64,000 bases of DNA, from the NCBI RefSeq assembly GCF_014235875.1, contig NZ_JACJUK010000006.1, forward strand, positions 62,001 through 126,000, read 5' to 3'. The position numbers and the translations under genes are program-made. The first letter of the stretch is position 1; each line of letters starts with the position of its first letter. A model generated the notes under the pieces. It was not told where the DNA came from, did not search any database, and saw only the letters and a list, made by a program, of their open reading frames with translations. This stretch comes from Croceivirga lutea (lineage in GTDB: Bacteria; Bacteroidota; Bacteroidia; Flavobacteriales; Flavobacteriaceae). Below, piece after piece: positions 360-11,017 of this stretch.

Positions 360-860
360 ATGAACAATGTTTGTGAAGAGCAACAGTATAGCTCAATTTT
401 CTCAACCCATTCTAAAACGGTTTTCAATTTCATCTATTATAAATTTGGTAATGAAGAAAAAGCTCATGACGCTGTTCAAGAAGCTTTTGTAAAGCTTTGG
501 GAGAATTGTAGTAAGGTAACACCAGATAAAGCTAAATCTTATTTATTTACTGTTGCCAACAACTTGTACTTAAATGTACTTAAGGCAGAAAAGGTGAAAC
601 TTAAATACGCCGATAGGCATACACATACTACTACCTACGAGTCTCCAGAATTTGTTTTAGAGGAAAAACAATTTGAAGATAAACTCAACAATGCTCTAAA
701 TAGCTTGCCTGAAAATCAAAGAACCACTTTTTTATTAAATAGAATTGACGGTAAAAAATATGCAGAAATTGCTGAAATGGAAGGGGTAAGCGTAAAGGCT
801 ATTGAAAAAAGAATGCATTTGGCGCTAAAATATTTGAGAGAACATATTGATGGAATATAA
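360..860 (+). CDS. ECF RNA polymerase sigma factor (sigma-70 family)
   Basis: The product is a 166-residue sigma factor of the extracytoplasmic-function type. Region 2 is visible at about residues 10-75, including the helix NEEKAHDAVQEAFVKLWEN. Region 4 lies at about 115-160, with LPENQRTTFLLNRIDGKKY followed by a helix-turn-helix (YAEIAEMEGVSVKAIEKRM). There is no region 1 or 3, as expected for ECF factors. It is followed by a FecR anti-sigma factor and a FecA-like receptor, the standard Bacteroidota trans-envelope signalling cassette. Ligand binding at the receptor should release this sigma to activate the cassette and perhaps the divergent lipoprotein. A weak -7 match (TATCTTTA, 322-329) precedes it. 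Confidence 0.9.
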   Translation: MNNVCEEQQYSSIFSTHSKTVFNFIYYKFGNEEKAHDAVQEAFVKLWENCSKVTPDKAKSYLFTVANNLYLNVLKAEKVKLKYADRHTHTTTYESPEFVLEEKQFEDKLNNALNSLPENQRTTFLLNRIDGKKYAEIAEMEGVSVKAIEKRMHLALKYLREHIDGI

Positions 861-933
861 ATATGAAATAAAATGAGATTTGAAGTAGGGTTTACAAAAA
901 GTTAGTTGTTATAAAATTGAAAGAAAAGATATT

Positions 934-1848
934 ATGCAAGAAAATTACTTAGCAAAATGGTTGAACAACGAGCTCACAGAAGAGGAGTTGGCGACTTTTA
1001 AAAAGTCTGCTGAGTATGCTTCTTATGAGAAAATAGCCAAAGCTTCTAACAAGCTTAAAGCTCCAGAATTTGACCAAAACAAAGCTTGGGAACAACTAAA
1101 AGACAAAACAAAAACCAATAGAGCATCTAAAGTGGTTGTTTTAAATCCGTTTAAGAATTTCCTTAGAGTTGCTGCGGTTATTGCTATACTTCTAACAGGC
1201 TCTTATTTCTTTTTAAATTCTTTAGACCAAACGTATGAGTCTCAACTGGCACAACAGACCGAGTTGGTCTTACCTGATAATTCAGAAATTGTTTTGAATG
1301 CGGCATCAAAAGTTTCGTTTAGTGAGAAAAAATGGGACAAAAAAAGAGCCGTTGCCCTAGATGGTGAGGCCTTTTTTAAAGTTGCCAAAGGAAAAAAGTT
1401 CACGGTAACCACCTCTTCTGGAAAAATAGCAGTTTTAGGTACGCAGTTTAATGTAAAAAATAGAGATGGCTTATTTACGGTTTCATGTTTTGAAGGTCTT
1501 GTAAGTGTTACCTATAATTCTAAAGAAATTAAATTGCCTGCTGGTAATTCTTTTACCGTAATTAACGGCAATGTTAGTAAGGGTACAGCACAACGCAATG
1601 GACAGCCATCTTGGCTAAATAAAGAAAGTAGCTTTACTAGCACACCTTTAGAATATGTTTTAGCTGAATTTGAAAGACAATTTAATATTAAAGTAGAAAC
1701 CCAAAATATTAATACTAATAAGCTATTTACAGGTACTTTTAGTAATAGCGATATTAATTTAGCGTTGAAAAGTATAAGCACTCCTACCCAAATTCGTTTT
1801 AAATTAGGCAAGGAAAAGGTACTTTTCTATGACGAGAATACACCTTAA
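934..1848 (+). CDS. FecR-family anti-sigma factor
   Basis: The product is 304 residues with one membrane segment at about 76-94 (FLRVAAVIAILLTGSYFFL). The N-terminal 75 residues would bind the sigma factor in the cytoplasm. The periplasmic part carries a FecR domain at about 108-205, with ELVLPDNSEIVLNAASKV, GEAFFKV and VLGTQFNV. The C-terminal DUF4974-like domain (about 230-300) is where such proteins contact the STN domain of the partner receptor. It lies 73 bp after the sigma gene and its last 20 bases overlap the receptor start, so translation is probably coupled. Confidence 0.92.
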   Translation: MQENYLAKWLNNELTEEELATFKKSAEYASYEKIAKASNKLKAPEFDQNKAWEQLKDKTKTNRASKVVVLNPFKNFLRVAAVIAILLTGSYFFLNSLDQTYESQLAQQTELVLPDNSEIVLNAASKVSFSEKKWDKKRAVALDGEAFFKVAKGKKFTVTTSSGKIAVLGTQFNVKNRDGLFTVSCFEGLVSVTYNSKEIKLPAGNSFTVINGNVSKGTAQRNGQPSWLNKESSFTSTPLEYVLAEFERQFNIKVETQNINTNKLFTGTFSNSDINLALKSISTPTQIRFKLGKEKVLFYDENTP

Positions 1849-4375
1849 GTTTCTAATTCTTTTTGTGGGGCTAATTTTTGTCCCTAGGCTATCATTGGCG
1901 CAAGAAACCAAATCTTTGCGTGAGGTAATAGTGCAGGCCGAAGAAAAATTCAATGTAAAGTTTTCTTTTGCAGATGAATCTATTACAAATCTGCAAGTAA
2001 CCGTTGAGGAAACAGATTCTCTTACCAATTTTATTGCTCAAATTAAAGCGCAAACAGCTTTAGAGATTTCTACTATTAGTGAGCGTTATTATGCCATTGT
2101 GTTAACAAAAACAGTTTCTATTTGTGGTTTTGTACTCGACAATTATGCAAAAAATTCTATACCCGGTGCATCAATTGAACTATTAGGAACAGAAAAGGCT
2201 TTGGTTACCAATTTAGATGGTAGCTTTTCATTAGAAAACCTCTCAAGAGATGCTTCGCTACGTTTTCGATATCTGGGTTATGAAACTAAAATTGTACCCG
2301 TTTCTGACTTTCTTCAAACTAAAGAATGTGTAAAAATTTTATTAGCTGAACGTAGAGAACAATTACGAGAAGTTGTTGTTTATCAGTTTTTAACTTCAGG
2401 AATTACTCGCGAAAAAGATGCCAGTATAGCCTTAGACTTAAGTAAACTCGGGGTTTTACCTGGGGTTATTGAGCCAGATATTTTACAAAGTGTTCAAGCG
2501 TTGCCTGGCATTAAAAGTATTGATGAAACCGTTTCAGATATTAACGTAAGAGGTGGCACTAATGACCAAAACCTAATTCTATGGAATAATATTAAAATTT
2601 ATCAGTCCGGACACTTTTTCGGACTTATATCAGCCTTTAATCCTTACTTAATTAAAGACGTTTCTATTTTTAAAAACGGGACACCCTCAAATTTTGGTGA
2701 TGGCGTAAGTAGTGTAATTAGTATGAAAACTAACAATGAGCTTAGCGGTTATTTTACAGGTGGAGGCGGTATCAATTTTATTACGGGTGATATGTATGGT
2801 CAATTTCCGATTAACGATAAAACAGAATTACAATTCTCAGCAAGGCGCTCAGCTACTGATTTTTTAAACACCCCAACTTATAACAGTTTTACAGAACGAG
2901 CGTTTCAAGATTCTGAGGTTCAAAATGAACAAGGACAAAATACTACCGAAGATTTTGAGCGTAATGAAGATTTCTACTTCTATGATTTTTCTGGAAAGGT
3001 TTTATACAATTATAATGAAGACCATAAATTACGCTTGAGTTTTATTGTAATGGACAACGATTTGGATTATTTAGAAACCAATCTAAACACCAATGAAACC
3101 ACACAAAGCTTTTTAGACCAAACCAATATTTCGGCAGGCTTGCAATGGCTTGCACAATGGTCTTCTAATTTTAGTTCAGAGGCCAATGTATATTTTTCAA
3201 ACTATGACCTCAATGCTATTGGTATAGAGGCCAATCAAATTCAACGACTAAATCAAAAAAATCAGGTTGATGAACGTGCATTAAAAATAAATACTTTGTA
3301 CAAAGCCCATAAAAGAATTAATTGGCAAAATGGGTTTCAATATGTAGAAACAGGTATCACAAACAAAGCTTTTGTTACCCAACCACCTTTTGATACTAAT
3401 AGAAAAGGAGTTATAAGAATATACGCCCCATTTACCTCGATTACCTACAATTCTTTTGAAGATAATTTTATTACGACTATTGGTTTAAGAGCTAATTATA
3501 TTGATAACCTAGGTACGTTTACAGCATTACTTTTTGAGCCTAGATTAAATATGAATTTTAAAATTGCTCGCAACCTAAGAGGGCAAATATTAGGTGAATT
3601 TAAAAGTCAGACCACCAATCAGGTAATTGATTTAGAGCAAAATTTTTTAGGGGTTGAAAAAAGACGATGGATACTTTCTGATGATGCTGATTTACCAATT
3701 ACCAAAAGTAAGCAAGGCTCAATTGGAATAAATTACGACTATAATGGCCTGTATCTTGGAGGCGAAATATTTTATAAAAAAGTTGATGGCATAAGTGTAC
3801 TAACACAAGGTTTCCAGAATGAAAATCAGTTTAATGGCGATGAAATTGGCGGCTATGATGTTAAAGGATTTGAGTTTTTAATTAACAAAAAAACTGGCCT
3901 ATTTAGCAATTGGTTAAGCTATACGTACAATACCAATAATTACACTTTTGAACACATACCTCCAAATTCTTTTCCAAACAATTTAGATGTACGGCATAGT
4001 ATTACAGCAGCAACTACATTTCAAAAGAAAAATTTAGGATTAGCATTGGGTCTTAATTACCGCACCGGAAAGCCTTTTACTAAACCTAATGAAGATAATC
4101 CACTTAATGTTCAAGTTTTTCCGGCTGAAATTAATTATGAAGAACCCAACAGCAGCAGACTGCCAGAATACTTAAGGTTAGATGCCTCGGCAACTTACAA
4201 TTTTCAGCTTAGTAGAAGCATCAAAGCAAAAGCAGGCGTATCACTATTAAACATTACGAACAGAAAAAACATTTTAAACACCTATTACCGCGTAAATAGT
4301 TCTAATGAAATTGAGACTATAGAAAATAAATCGCTAGGTCTTACCCCCAATTTAACTTTCAGAATTAGCTTTTAG
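1829..4375 (+). CDS. TonB-dependent transducer receptor with STN domain
   Basis: The product is an 848-residue outer-membrane receptor. A signal peptide (MTRIHLKFLILFVGLIFVPRLSLAQ) is followed by an STN signalling domain at about 25-95. A CarboxypepD_reg-like beta-sandwich (about 97-180, with VTNLDGSFSL) and a TonB plug (about 205-310, with DINVRGGTNDQNLILWNN) come next, then a beta-barrel ending in Phe (LTFRISF). The STN domain marks it as a transducer that reports ligand binding to the FecR protein. The ligand cannot be read from sequence; siderophores or other scarce nutrients are usual. The start overlaps fecR by 20 bases. Its 3' end overlaps the convergent blh gene by 24 bases. Confidence 0.92.
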   Translation: MTRIHLKFLILFVGLIFVPRLSLAQETKSLREVIVQAEEKFNVKFSFADESITNLQVTVEETDSLTNFIAQIKAQTALEISTISERYYAIVLTKTVSICGFVLDNYAKNSIPGASIELLGTEKALVTNLDGSFSLENLSRDASLRFRYLGYETKIVPVSDFLQTKECVKILLAERREQLREVVVYQFLTSGITREKDASIALDLSKLGVLPGVIEPDILQSVQALPGIKSIDETVSDINVRGGTNDQNLILWNNIKIYQSGHFFGLISAFNPYLIKDVSIFKNGTPSNFGDGVSSVISMKTNNELSGYFTGGGGINFITGDMYGQFPINDKTELQFSARRSATDFLNTPTYNSFTERAFQDSEVQNEQGQNTTEDFERNEDFYFYDFSGKVLYNYNEDHKLRLSFIVMDNDLDYLETNLNTNETTQSFLDQTNISAGLQWLAQWSSNFSSEANVYFSNYDLNAIGIEANQIQRLNQKNQVDERALKINTLYKAHKRINWQNGFQYVETGITNKAFVTQPPFDTNRKGVIRIYAPFTSITYNSFEDNFITTIGLRANYIDNLGTFTALLFEPRLNMNFKIARNLRGQILGEFKSQTTNQVIDLEQNFLGVEKRRWILSDDADLPITKSKQGSIGINYDYNGLYLGGEIFYKKVDGISVLTQGFQNENQFNGDEIGGYDVKGFEFLINKKTGLFSNWLSYTYNTNNYTFEHIPPNSFPNNLDVRHSITAATTFQKKNLGLALGLNYRTGKPFTKPNEDNPLNVQVFPAEINYEEPNSSRLPEYLRLDASATYNFQLSRSIKAKAGVSLLNITNRKNILNTYYRVNSSNEIETIENKSLGLTPNLTFRISF

Positions 4376-5236
4376 ATTTTCTAGTTTAGACATCAATACT
4401 ATGTGCGGAAAAGATATTGCTGCGAGTAAATATAGAATAAGGGTGATAAAATAATCTGTGCGCTCTTTAAATACTAAATACAGTATAAGCAAGCCAAATA
4501 TTGAAATACTGTAGTAAAGCCAAGAAGACTTTAAGTAAGACAACCAAGTTTTTTTATTGTAATCACCATATAACAAATAAAGTTGATCTTTAATAGAGGG
4601 AAAACTATGCCAGAAAATAAAATAAATTGCGAATGCCCAAGAGAGGGAGGCTACTTCAAAAACCACATATAAAACACCGAGTAACAAGACCTCAGCAAAC
4701 CAATTTAGCTGTATTTTTTTTAAAATAGCATAGGCAGTTATAACACCAAAAAAAAGACCGGCCGAAACCCAAAATATGAGCTCAATATTTAACGTGTTAT
4801 TTCCTGTGAACTCAACTATTATCATTTCTACTTTGTTTATTTTTTTGTAAAATAACATAAACAATATTAATGAACCGTAAGAAACAAATAAAGCCCAATC
4901 AAATTGAGATTTAACTTTGATTTTTTGAGCAAAATGTTGCTCACCAAAATGATAAGCGCTTATAATCAAGAAAAAATAAAAAGCCCATTGAGCGGATACC
5001 AAAAACAAAAGTGATACGCCTACTATCGCAGCCACATACATATATAAGTAATTGTTTTTCTTTTGTTTATCTTTTTTAACCTTGTTTATGAGTTGTATGT
5101 CATTTGCACCGTGTAAAACCCCAAACGTTAATATTAAAAAATACGCAAGGCTATTCTGTATACTTTCTGGTAGTTGCGTAGACAACCATAAACAAAAAAA
5201 CGTAGCAACAATTAACCAATTTCGCATTTTAACCAT
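4352..5236 (-). CDS. blh: Brp/Blh-family beta-carotene 15,15'-dioxygenase
   Basis: This membrane enzyme splits beta-carotene into two retinal molecules, the chromophore of the neighbouring proteorhodopsin. The 294-residue protein has about eight hydrophobic helices. The family's iron-binding His positions are visible: H42 in LHGANDI, H96 in YHFGEQH (with H101), H210 in FWHSFPSIKDQ and H278 in SFPHIVLM. It is divergent from the rhodopsin gene across a 99-bp spacer rich in inverted repeats. ATG at 5236 is used here; an ATG at 5227 (MRNWLIV) is equally plausible because a repeat arm lies 4 bases upstream of the first. Beta-carotene synthesis genes are not in the window. Confidence 0.92.
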   Translation of the reverse strand: MVKMRNWLIVATFFCLWLSTQLPESIQNSLAYFLILTFGVLHGANDIQLINKVKKDKQKKNNYLYMYVAAIVGVSLLFLVSAQWAFYFFLIISAYHFGEQHFAQKIKVKSQFDWALFVSYGSLILFMLFYKKINKVEMIIVEFTGNNTLNIELIFWVSAGLFFGVITAYAILKKIQLNWFAEVLLLGVLYVVFEVASLSWAFAIYFIFWHSFPSIKDQLYLLYGDYNKKTWLSYLKSSWLYYSISIFGLLILYLVFKERTDYFITLILYLLAAISFPHIVLMSKLENLKANSES

Positions 5237-5239
5237 TCA

Positions 5240-5271
5240 TTGTTTAAATATATCTCAAAATTTTTAAACAA
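5240..5271. promoter_or_regulatory. Inverted repeat 1 in the blh-proteorhodopsin spacer (candidate operator)
   Basis: TTGTTTAAA (5240-5248) and TTTAAACAA (5263-5271) are perfect 9-bp complements separated by 14 bases. The repeat ends 4 bases before the blh start codon, so a bound protein would cover the blh promoter or leader. Confidence 0.55.
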
Positions 5272-5285
5272 ATATTATGATTTAA

Positions 5286-5317
5286 TTGTTTAACTTTTAT
5301 TTATATTCGTTAAACAA
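5286..5317. promoter_or_regulatory. Inverted repeat 2 in the blh-proteorhodopsin spacer (candidate operator)
   Basis: TTGTTTAAC (5286-5294) and GTTAAACAA (5309-5317) are perfect 9-bp complements, again separated by exactly 14 bases. The repeat lies 46 bp from repeat 1 and 18 bases before the rhodopsin ATG. A possible -7 box for the rhodopsin (TATATTCG, 5302-5309) lies in its spacer and touches the right arm. Confidence 0.55.
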
Positions 5318-5335
5318 ATTGCTAAAACTAATTTC

Positions 5336-6073
5336 ATGAAAACATTATTATTTAATTTACCGTTGTTTGCAGACGTAACTAAAATTGCAAATGACGACTA
5401 TGTAGGCTTTACCTTTTTTGTTGGTTGTATGGCCATGATGGCAGCTTCTGCCTTTTTCTTTTTATCAATGAATGATTTTGATAAAAAGTGGAAAACTTCA
5501 ATTCTGGTTTCAGGATTAATCACATTTATTGCTGCAGTACATTATTGGTACATGAGAGACTATTGGGGAAGCGTTGGTGAATCTCCAACATTTTTCAGGT
5601 ATGTTGACTGGGTATTAACGGTACCATTAATGTGTGTGGAGTTCTATTTGATTCTTAAAGTAGCCGGAGCTAAGAAATCATTAATGTGGAAACTTATTGG
5701 ATTATCTGTAGTAATGCTAGTTACAGGCTATTTAGGTGAGGCCGTGTACAGAGACCAAGCATGGTTATGGGGTCTAATCTCAGGTATAGCTTATTTTGTT
5801 ATTGTTTATGAGATATGGCTTGGTAGTGCTAAAAAACTGGCTGTTGAGGCTGGAGGCGCAATACTTAAGGCACACAAAATGTTATGCTGGTTTGTACTTG
5901 TAGGCTGGGCTATTTATCCTATTGGTTATATGGCAGGAACTCCTGGATGGTACGACGGTATTTTTGATGGTTTAGCTATGGATGTTGTTTACAATATAGG
6001 TGATGCTATTAATAAAATTGGATTTGGTTTAGTGGTTTACAGTGCAGCAGTTGCCGCACGTGCAAAAGCTTAA
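5336..6073 (+). CDS. Green-absorbing proteorhodopsin, proton-pump type
   Basis: The product is a 245-residue seven-helix retinal protein that pumps protons out of the cell in light. Key residues are visible: H69, R88, proton acceptor D91, T95 and proton donor E102 (the DTE motif in RYVDWVLTVPLMCVEFYLI), D223, and the retinal Schiff-base lysine K227 (GDAINKIGFG). Position 99, equal to residue 105 of the SAR86 protein, is Met, which in flavobacteria goes with green absorption. DTE separates it from the NDQ sodium pump and the NTQ chloride pump. It is monocistronic, ends in a strong hairpin terminator, and is divergent from blh. Confidence 0.96.
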   Translation: MKTLLFNLPLFADVTKIANDDYVGFTFFVGCMAMMAASAFFFLSMNDFDKKWKTSILVSGLITFIAAVHYWYMRDYWGSVGESPTFFRYVDWVLTVPLMCVEFYLILKVAGAKKSLMWKLIGLSVVMLVTGYLGEAVYRDQAWLWGLISGIAYFVIVYEIWLGSAKKLAVEAGGAILKAHKMLCWFVLVGWAIYPIGYMAGTPGWYDGIFDGLAMDVVYNIGDAINKIGFGLVVYSAAVAARAKA

Positions 6074-9171: not shown

Positions 9172-9596
9172 TGTTAGTAAACGTATCTTACAACGATAAA
9201 AAAATAAGAGAAAAAATTGATAGCGAGGTGGGTAAACCGTTTACGCTCAAAGAACGCATTAAATTAGCAGGTATTGGTTCCCCTAAATTAGAAATAACCG
9301 AAGCTAGCGTTGAAATTAGAAACCTTTTAATCTTAGATAACAACGCAGATTGCTGTAATATTGAAATGCGCCCCAACGGCATAATACTTGGTTTTAGGTC
9401 ATTATTAGAGTCTTACGCACTAATTATTCCTTTTTACAAACTAACCATTTATAAAGGAGATTTGGCTGTTTACAGTATTTACAAAGACCACTACTTTGTT
9501 AAGGTTAAGGCAGACACTAAAGCGGTACAAAAGTTTTTTAAAAAACTATTAGACTATAAAACCGATAATAGACCAACTTCAATTGAAGATTTATGA
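9171..9596 (+). CDS. Conserved-looking protein of unknown function
   Basis: The product is a 141-residue soluble protein with no signal peptide or membrane helix, and I do not recognise the family. Its middle has alternating strands (NIEMRPNGIILGFRSLLESY, LTIYKGDLAVYSIYKDHYFV) and a Lys-rich helical tail, resembling a small alpha/beta domain. Its ATG overlaps the restored end of the VOC gene (TAATG) and its own stop overlaps the following SDR start (ATGA). It was therefore the middle gene of a coupled three-gene operon, and loss of the VOC reading frame could lower its translation. Confidence 0.7.
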   Translation: MLVNVSYNDKKIREKIDSEVGKPFTLKERIKLAGIGSPKLEITEASVEIRNLLILDNNADCCNIEMRPNGIILGFRSLLESYALIIPFYKLTIYKGDLAVYSIYKDHYFVKVKADTKAVQKFFKKLLDYKTDNRPTSIEDL

Positions 9597-11017
9597 AAAT
9601 TCTACTTACCGGGGCTAACGGTTATATAGGAATGCGAATTTTACCGCAACTACTAGATATGGGCCATGATGTGGTTTGTGCAGTACGTGACCAAAATAGA
9701 TTGTCTATTGATAAAGAAACTCGTGAAAAAGTTGAAATAATTGAAATCGACTTTTTAGACGAAATTCCTAAAAATCCTATCCCAAAAGATATTGAAGCGG
9801 CCTATTATTTAATTCATTCTATGACCTCATCAATTTCAGATTTTGATGAGAAAGAAGCTAAAGCTGCCAAAAAGTTTAATGAGTTGGTTTCAAAAACCCA
9901 ACTTAAGCAAGTTATTTACTTGAGTGGAATAGTTAATGATGAACAATTATCTAAACATTTATCGTCTAGAAAAAATGTTGAAGATATCTTATATCAAGGT
10001 GAATTTAGCCTTACCGTTTTAAGGGCTGGTATTATTGTAGGTTCTGGTAGTTCATCGTTCGAAATTATTAGAGACCTGTGTGAAAAACTTCCTTTAATGA
10101 TTACTCCTAAATGGGTACTTACCAAAACCCAGCCCATTGCCATAAGAGATGTAATAGCTTTTTTGTCTGGAGTTTTGGGAAATAAAGATACCTACAACCA
10201 ATCTTTTGATATCGGTGGTCCAGACGTGCTTACTTATAAAGAAATGCTGCATAAATATGCAAAAGTAAGAGGGTTTAAAAATTACATTTTCACTGTTCCA
10301 GTAATGACGCCAAAGCTATCTTCATACTGGTTATATTTTGTAACGTCTACCTCATATAAATTGGCAGTGAACCTCGTGGATAGTATGAAAATGGAGGTGA
10401 TTGCCAAAGACAATAAACTGCAACAATTACTTAATATTAAAACACACTCGTACGAACAAGCTATTGATTTAGCATTTAAAAAAATTGAGCAAAATCAAGT
10501 AATAAGTAGTTGGAAAGATAGTATTGCTAGCGGACAGGTAAAAAAGAATTTAGAAAAATACATTCAAGTTCCCAAATATGGTGTTTTAAAAGATGTTCAA
10601 ACTCTTAAAATCGAAGATTCAGAAAAAACGCTAGAAAATATTTGGCGAATTGGTGGCGAAACTGGCTGGTATTATGGTAGCTGGCTTTGGAAAATTAGAG
10701 GGTATCTAGACAAACTCAATGGAGGACCAGGATTACGAAGAGGCCGAACCAACCCAGATAGAATTTTTCCTGGTGATGCTTTAGACTTTTGGCGTGTACT
10801 ACTAGCGGACAAAAAGGCAAAACGTTTGTTACTTTTTGCTGAAATGCGATTACCAGGTGAAGCATGGTTAGAATTTAAAATTGACGATAACAATGTTTTA
10901 CATCAAACTGCAACGTTTAGACCAAAAGGATTAAAAGGCCGCTTATATTGGTACAGCGTATTACCATTTCACTTTTTTATTTTTAATGGAATGATTAAAA
11001 ATATAGCCCAAGCATAA
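9593..11017 (+). CDS. NAD(P)-binding SDR-like protein with DUF2867 (YbjT type)
   Basis: The product is 474 residues in two parts. Residues 1 to about 300 form an atypical short-chain dehydrogenase/NmrA-like Rossmann domain with the nucleotide loop TGANGYIG at 6-13. DIEAAYYLIHSMTSSISDF and LSGIVNDEQLSKH are typical of the YbjT group. Residues from about 325 match DUF2867, with WRIGGETGWYYGSWLWKIRG, GGPGLRRGR and a Trp-rich end. Substrate and reaction are unknown. The start overlaps the upstream stop by four bases (ATGA), so translation is coupled. Confidence 0.82.
   Translation: MKILLTGANGYIGMRILPQLLDMGHDVVCAVRDQNRLSIDKETREKVEIIEIDFLDEIPKNPIPKDIEAAYYLIHSMTSSISDFDEKEAKAAKKFNELVSKTQLKQVIYLSGIVNDEQLSKHLSSRKNVEDILYQGEFSLTVLRAGIIVGSGSSSFEIIRDLCEKLPLMITPKWVLTKTQPIAIRDVIAFLSGVLGNKDTYNQSFDIGGPDVLTYKEMLHKYAKVRGFKNYIFTVPVMTPKLSSYWLYFVTSTSYKLAVNLVDSMKMEVIAKDNKLQQLLNIKTHSYEQAIDLAFKKIEQNQVISSWKDSIASGQVKKNLEKYIQVPKYGVLKDVQTLKIEDSEKTLENIWRIGGETGWYYGSWLWKIRGYLDKLNGGPGLRRGRTNPDRIFPGDALDFWRVLLADKKAKRLLLFAEMRLPGEAWLEFKIDDNNVLHQTATFRPKGLKGRLYWYSVLPFHFFIFNGMIKNIAQA

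Follow-up and report, generated by a model that had tools for sequence, protein, structure and literature searches.

Introduction

Between the divergent genes for retinal synthesis (blh) and proteorhodopsin in Croceivirga lutea lie two inverted repeats of the same build, which raises the question of what these repeats do, which protein reads them and which other genes share them. Light induction of proteorhodopsin in marine flavobacteria has already been reported (PMC9040609), and in Dokdonia MED134 approximately 20% of the genes respond to light, those for proteorhodopsin, retinal, cryptochrome and photolyase included (PMC9040609). A Chryseobacterium is yellow in the light and white in the dark, for which a CarA/LitR-like factor was guessed by the authors (PMC7064467). 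In the open-access literature, taken as titles and the starts of abstracts among the matches listed, no named operator or regulator was found for flavobacterial proteorhodopsin; nor was a LitR/CarH gene set of Flavobacteriaceae named there, the guess in PMC7064467 excepted.

We propose that the two inverted repeats are very probably the operators of a LitR/CarH-like repressor that would occupy them in the dark and, on release by light, would turn its target genes on. The regulator is likely the LitR/CarH-like protein of the MerR type that heads a carotenoid operon of this organism (LitR below). The regulator family is already known, and what would be new is the operator layout together with a bioenergetically important target. 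A candidate regulator protein, a DNA site and a gene set are now on offer across many genera, and if the proposal is true, light energy capture, the supply of retinal and carotenoids, the repair of light damage and possibly vitamin B12 status would all come under one switch in marine flavobacteria.

Two matched repeats in the blh-rhodopsin spacer

In the window (the whole stretch of 64,000 nucleotides that was analysed), blh lies on the minus strand at 4352..5236 and codes for a beta-carotene 15,15'-dioxygenase of the Brp/Blh family (294 aa; PF15461, E 2.3e-34; TIGR03753 above cut-off) for retinal synthesis. The rhodopsin gene lies on the plus strand at 5336..6073, and its product, a proteorhodopsin-type rhodopsin of 245 aa (PF01036, E 1.4e-40), is 78-91% identical to those of the 80 relatives kept for comparison. 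The preliminary description had reported two inverted repeats with perfect 9-bp arms and 14-nt spacers, and both are present, at 5240-5271 and 5286-5317. The predicted operator 1, on the blh side (5240..5271), reads TTGTTTAAA-N14-TTTAAACAA, and it begins 3 nt past the start codon of blh, which lies at 5236 on the minus strand. The predicted operator 2, on the rhodopsin side (5286..5317), reads TTGTTTAAC-N14-GTTAAACAA, and the rhodopsin ATG is 50 nt downstream of its start. Since the gap between the two repeats (5272..5285; unstranded, like the operators) is also 14 nt, the four half-sites follow each other at a near-even pitch, with distances of 24, 22 and 24 bp from one core centre to the next.

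The pattern used for searching was TTGTTTAA-N16-TTAAACAA (8-base arms), of which two copies lie between blh and the rhodopsin gene; operator 1 is an exact match to these 16 bases of the genome-wide pattern. When the gap between the 8-base arms was allowed to vary from 12 to 20, the window held two matches, against a mean of 0.02 after shuffling.

Some other features of this region were also recorded. A third site with intact cores and two mismatches, TTGTTTAT-N16-ATAAACAA, is found within the blh coding sequence (window 4833-4864) and may be a chance match. Convergent with blh, at window 360-4375, are ORFs that from their sequence alone resemble an ECF sigma factor, a FecR-like anti-sigma factor and a TonB-dependent receptor. 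A search of phage DNA with the rhodopsin gene as query gave no matches.

Conservation upstream of rhodopsin genes

The best 80 of 586 confirmed candidate rhodopsin loci were compared, with 200 nt upstream of each gene being scanned. The site at gap 16 was found in 23, 51, 68 and 70 of the 80 spacers at up to 0, 1, 2 and 3 mismatches, against 0, 0, 0.55 and 4.75 loci in dinucleotide-shuffle controls and 0, 0, 2 and 7 spacers for the reversed pattern. Any other gap from 8 to 26 occurred in at most 3/80 spacers at up to one mismatch, and the 200 nt inside the rhodopsin genes held no site at any of the 80 loci. The check suggested in the preliminary description, that arms and spacing be compared in relatives, thus found them conserved in 70/80 spacers at up to three mismatches. 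The best kept part of the arms was TGTTTA/TAAACA, which is partly a matter of selection since the sites were picked by pattern match.

In 78 of the 80 loci blh was the divergent neighbour, the remaining two having too little upstream sequence, and these 78 comprised 36 loci with two sites, 34 with one and eight with none. Across the 38 spacers with two matches, the distance between them was 34-35 bp in 19, 44-46 bp in 17, 31 bp in one and 20 bp in one, where the matches overlap. With 34-35 bp and 44-46 bp as the distances, the spacing of the sites therefore shifts in steps of about one helix turn. Such spacing of the double sites suggests that two LitR assemblies would sit along the same face of the helix, possibly with cooperation between them.

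Ten of the 80 rhodopsin spacers had no site at up to three mismatches. Seven of these ten are labelled Polaribacter, and their genomes have a LitR match at 51-60% identity; five other Polaribacter-labelled rhodopsin loci have the site at 1-3 mismatches. Eight of the site-less upstream regions were inspected by eye (L049, L053, L059, L063, L072, L073, L081 and L088; seven of the eight Polaribacter-labelled, LitR match present). Six of the eight keep TAnnTTTG, and the site seems either to have degenerated or to have moved downstream, past the -7 element.

In the family genomes surveyed below, 20 of the 28 rhodopsin loci (own locus included) had the site and eight did not; L185, one of 29 matches, was not recognised as a rhodopsin and was left out. 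Seven of the eight loci without a site belong to genomes with a LitR match, one of the seven having a broken rhodopsin gene, and the eighth (L159) belongs to G003, a genome without LitR whose weak match is a short MerR protein. A partial rhodopsin frame with one internal stop was seen at L184 (G089).

Promoter-like elements around the sites

Bacteroidota promoters carry TTG and TAnnTTTG motifs. Between the arms of operator 2, at 5302..5309 on the plus strand, is TATATTCG, which is one base off TAnnTTTG and is the probable -7 element of the rhodopsin gene. A sigma-70 promoter and terminator scan of 4800-5800 gave no promoter in the spacer, for which it was uninformative, and a single site inside the rhodopsin gene. 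In the proximal sites of relatives, TAnnTTT is found at offset 15, between the arms, in 40/70, and a repressor on both arms would therefore cover the -7 element. Toward blh, the relatives show no dominant -7 position, with TAnnTTT occurring in at most 10/37 at any offset.

Frequency and neighbours of the site in the own genome

With gaps of 14-18 allowed, four exact copies of the pattern occur in this genome (3,446,719 bases in 19 contigs), all of them at gap 16, against one for the reversed control. The possibility raised in the preliminary description, that the pattern occurs at random frequency in this genome, is excluded for the exact pattern by this count. At up to three mismatches there were 185 sites and 250 for the reversed control, and since this is no excess, only close matches are meaningful in this genome. 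The sites counted towards the gene set were therefore those with at most one mismatch, plus two sites with two mismatches that stand out by position.

The repeats could in principle be promoter architecture, or chance products of AT-rich DNA, as the arms overlap promoter-like elements and the looser matches are no commoner than their control. We give this reading next to no probability, since the 8-mers keep a constant gap of 16, exact copies are scarce across the genome and none occurred in any of the 15 genomes that lack a LitR match. The counts largely refute it, single weak sites excepted.

Outside the blh-rhodopsin spacer there are two more exact sites. One precedes folE (GTP cyclohydrolase I; L001) by 73 nt and has an AraC-like ORF on its other flank. 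The second is upstream of a gene pair, cry-DASH and then a photolyase-related gene (L004, L187), from which a kmo-like gene diverges. Six sites have one mismatch. Two of these stand ahead of fasciclin genes, of which that at L005 is a multi-fasciclin gene and that at L010 is not. The others separate a TetR-like unit from htpG (L006) and bcp from nth (L007), precede an SRPBCC-SDR-photolyase row (L008) and adjoin DUF2237 and DoxX-like genes (L009). The names htpG, nth, kmo, AraC and that of the own photolyase were assigned by eye from the sequence and not by family search. Nine of the ten exact and one-mismatch sites are wholly intergenic, and the one at L009 shares 8 nt with the end of a predicted ORF. 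The two sites with two mismatches are found at C1:117334, near L005, and at C2:19571-19602, where the site overlaps the start codon of a MerR-type gene, litR. One regulator for blh and rhodopsin together, as had been put forward at the outset, is well supported, the same site being found at the litR, crtI, photolyase/cryptochrome and folE operons.

The large multi-fasciclin protein gene has three candidate sites ahead of it (1, 3 and 2 mismatches; L005/L011, G000:C1:117209-117365). To our knowledge, fasciclin proteins have no role in light protection. At window 9593-11017 there is a DUF2867/NmrA-like gene. An exact site marks the start of related genes in two other genomes (L108, L126); no such site was found ahead of the gene in the window.

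LitR and the site at its own gene

The litR gene (G000:C2:19595-20494) is on another contig than the blh-rhodopsin spacer and heads a litR-crtI-crtB row with further carotenoid-type genes, among the later ones, we assume, CrtZ, CrtD and CruF. The statement of the preliminary description that no regulator gene is adjacent is correct in that none lies beside the spacer, but incomplete, as the likely regulator is on contig C2 next to crtI. Its guess at a MerR/LitR-like class fits what was found, since the site marks litR itself in 29/30 homologues and the crtI start beside litR in relatives.

A LitR match was obtained in 134 of 149 genomes, and the best 30 homologues (own included) were compared. 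In 29 the site is at exactly -24, so that its right arm is the start codon region ATGAACA (ATGAACAA in 26), and the 30th has an exact site just past its stop codon. The left arm was found at -24 with at most one mismatch in 29/30, compared with 17 among the 5,040 other positions between -200 and -33. The site at -24 supports a possible autoregulation of litR. The predicted litR operator is also partly encoded in the first codons, with ATGAACA both starting the protein and forming the right arm in 29/30 (L127-L156), and residues 1-2 of LitR, Met-Asn, are invariant in 30/30.

LitR has an N-terminal DNA-binding domain of the MerR type (PF13411, E 1.6e-13), with a recognition-helix motif RxWEKRY (RIWEKRY columns) that is invariant in 30/30 homologues, and a B12-binding four-helix bundle (PF02607, B12-binding_2, E 2.4e-10). 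It has matches at E 4e-10 to two LitR/CarH structures from Thermus, 3whp and 5c8d, and the Wx9EH (adenosyl-capping) and ExHxxG (lower-ligand) motifs are found in 30/30 homologues. We say that LitR would work like a LitR/CarH light repressor. CarH homologues are defined by Wx9EH and the B12 motif together (PMC8156234). In LitR the SxT/GG part of the B12 motif D/ExHx2G/P-x41-SxT/V-x22-27-GG is partly kept: a nearly invariant Ser follows after 40 residues, and a single invariant Gly, not GG, stands farther away than the motif asks. The residue after the Trp of Wx9EH is Gln, not the His found in many CarH proteins, PF02310 gave no match in LitR at E 0.01, and LitR missed the cut-off of NF052513 (TransRegCarH, NCBIfam) with 61.3 vs 400 bits. 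For these reasons, and because of the inverted-repeat operator, LitR is not filed as a CarH equivalog.

The partly degenerate Rossmann motif, the missing PF02310 hit and the missed equivalog cut-off would also suit a LitR that binds these sites and is no B12 photoreceptor, in which case light would act through another signal such as a LOV partner or singlet oxygen, or LitR would be an activator. A class II LitR under the control of a LOV protein has been described (PMC9758184). Against this stand the Wx9EH and ExHxxG motifs, intact in every one of the 30 homologues, and we consider such a LitR unlikely, though a good deal more credible than the other alternatives.

Sites and LitR across the family

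The family survey covered 149 genomes from 148 genera, which together held 227 exact sites, against five for the reversed control. Exact sites were present in 108/134 genomes with a LitR match and in 0/15 without (Fisher p 4e-10, relatedness ignored), and with a stricter line for LitR (E below 1e-50) in 106/123 vs 2/26 (Fisher p 1e-14, relatedness likewise ignored). There were 26/134 genomes with a LitR match and no exact site, and G022 and G006 have four and one exact sites despite having only a distant LitR match (34-35%). Four of the 80 rhodopsin genomes (L026, L064, L067 and L085) had no LitR match, and each shows the site at 0-3 mismatches; the site of L026 is exact and that of L067 has one mismatch, both being in rhodopsin-bearing metagenome assemblies. 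In the rhodopsin genomes behind L057 and L090 a LitR fragment was all that was found. By their titles, all six genomes with missing or fragmentary LitR come from metagenome assembly and might have gaps.

The own genome encodes two MerR_1 proteins, LitR and one short MerR, and another regulator such as this second MerR or a redox/stress regulator might use the sites, with bcp/nth and htpG, general stress genes, among the targets. The short MerR was present in 18/18 genomes tested, 17 of which have neither LitR nor exact sites, and it was rejected as the binder since all 17 LitR-less genomes that carry it have zero exact sites. The site at the litR start codon in 29/30 is also not so simply explained by another regulator, and we regard this alternative as distinctly improbable. 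LitR remains the preferred reader of the sites.

Outside the own genome, 71 of 223 sites (among the matches listed) were read with their neighbours. Fifty adjoin a fasciclin gene (18, the commonest neighbour), crtI (16), htpG (6, two of which also adjoin a TetR-like gene), an SRPBCC-SDR-photolyase row (5), folE (2), blh/rhodopsin (2) or bcp/nth (1). Seven of the other 21 precede DUF2867 genes, members of the folE row or an ORF followed by cry-DASH. The remaining 14 of the 71 had no placement in the gene set; at one of them (L116) a nearby fasciclin gene points toward the site, and four were searched against Pfam, giving two Porph_ging proteins and two proteins with nothing over the cut-off. 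The htpG site was found in 5/15 genomes with LitR and in 0/14 without.

As a universal direct target, folE was rejected, as 30/30 folE loci in other genomes had no close upstream site while three known positives were detected. At 6/6 loci with the folE type most like the own gene, folE is inside a row whose head carries the site (two exact, four with one mismatch), and this type was found in 6/15 genomes with LitR and 0/15 LitR-less genomes searched. The row itself (L288-L293), with the site at its head, consists of genes for a protein of approximately 142 aa, a DUF2805 protein, a second-type FolE, a protein of 71-75 aa and an SDR, not all of which were found at each locus.

Proposed mechanism

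We infer that LitR binds the sites, that it represses, that it depends on light and B12, and that it binds the phased pair cooperatively. In the dark, LitR, probably with AdoB12, would occupy both operators. Since the arms of operator 2 straddle the -7-like element of the rhodopsin gene and operator 1 abuts the blh start, both divergent promoters would be blocked. LitR would at the same time shut the carotenoid row including its own gene, as well as the repair and cofactor genes. In the light, the bond to the chromophore would be broken and LitR released from the DNA, whereupon retinal synthesis, rhodopsin, carotenoids, photolyases/cryptochrome and the folate-cofactor genes would come on together.

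It is somewhat better than an even chance, in our estimate, that flavobacterial rhodopsin phototrophy is directly gated by a B12-dependent dark repressor acting through CarH-like operators of a new class, built as inverted repeats, in which phased double copies would co-regulate two divergent promoters. If this B12-gated reading is true, light and the supply of B12 would both set the cellular levels of proteorhodopsin and retinal. The candidate target set resembles the known LitR regulon of P. putida, with phrB, cryB and folE (PMC9758184).

Comparison with known systems

The closest model is CarH of Thermus thermophilus and Bacillus megaterium, the AdoB12-dependent repressor of carotenoid genes that is released by light. 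LitR shares with it the MerR DNA-binding domain, a domain of the B12-binding type with Wx9EH and ExHxxG, and a gene position beside carotenoid genes, and in both cases the operator, here a predicted one, overlaps a target promoter. The half-site TAAACA fits the CarH half-site motif TnnACA (PMC9304148). However, the predicted operator is a 32-bp inverted repeat, whereas CarH uses three or four tandem 11-bp direct repeats, and in 0/96 sites was a second TnnACA (nnnnTnnACAn repeat) found at offset 11 from either arm on either side. A direct-repeat operator of the CarH type was rejected, as the half-sites fit TnnACA but are arranged as an inverted repeat. The targets here also differ in including rhodopsin and blh, LitR is without the GG and the His after Trp, and the identity between the proteins is 33% over the short stretch of DNA-binding domain compared. 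CarH leaves the DNA on illumination (PMC8156234). Characterised CarH proteins act as tetramers or pairs of dimers (PMC9304148); the single regulator first suggested for the spacer is well supported, and it may or may not be dimeric.

The class II LitR proteins PplR1 and PmlR2 of Pseudomonas share a two-part spaced site (TGTACA-N12-TGTACA), two sites per promoter and a regulon with phrB, cryB, folE and an SDR (PMC9758184). LitRs of P. putida take part in the light induction of phrB, cryB and folE according to the same report, in whose available description the regulon has no rhodopsin. PplR1 and PmlR2 differ in having their own half-site and spacing; class II proteins retain a single B12-binding domain out of two, and PmlR2 is under the control of a LOV protein. 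For CarA of Myxococcus xanthus, an operator with two inverted repeats is described (PMC9304148), the likeness being one of description and not base by base; unlike LitR, CarA has no Trp at the Wx9EH motif, and it depends on CarS as antirepressor.

The light-responsive set of Dokdonia MED134 shares rhodopsin, retinal synthesis, cryptochrome and photolyase with the gene set proposed here, but regulator and operator are unnamed in the available part of that report (PMC9040609). Both Dokdonia rhodopsin loci that were fetched (L035 and L084) carry the site. MliR is a MerR-like regulator without an effector domain (PMC9478572), and the short MerR of the own genome is similar to it in size.
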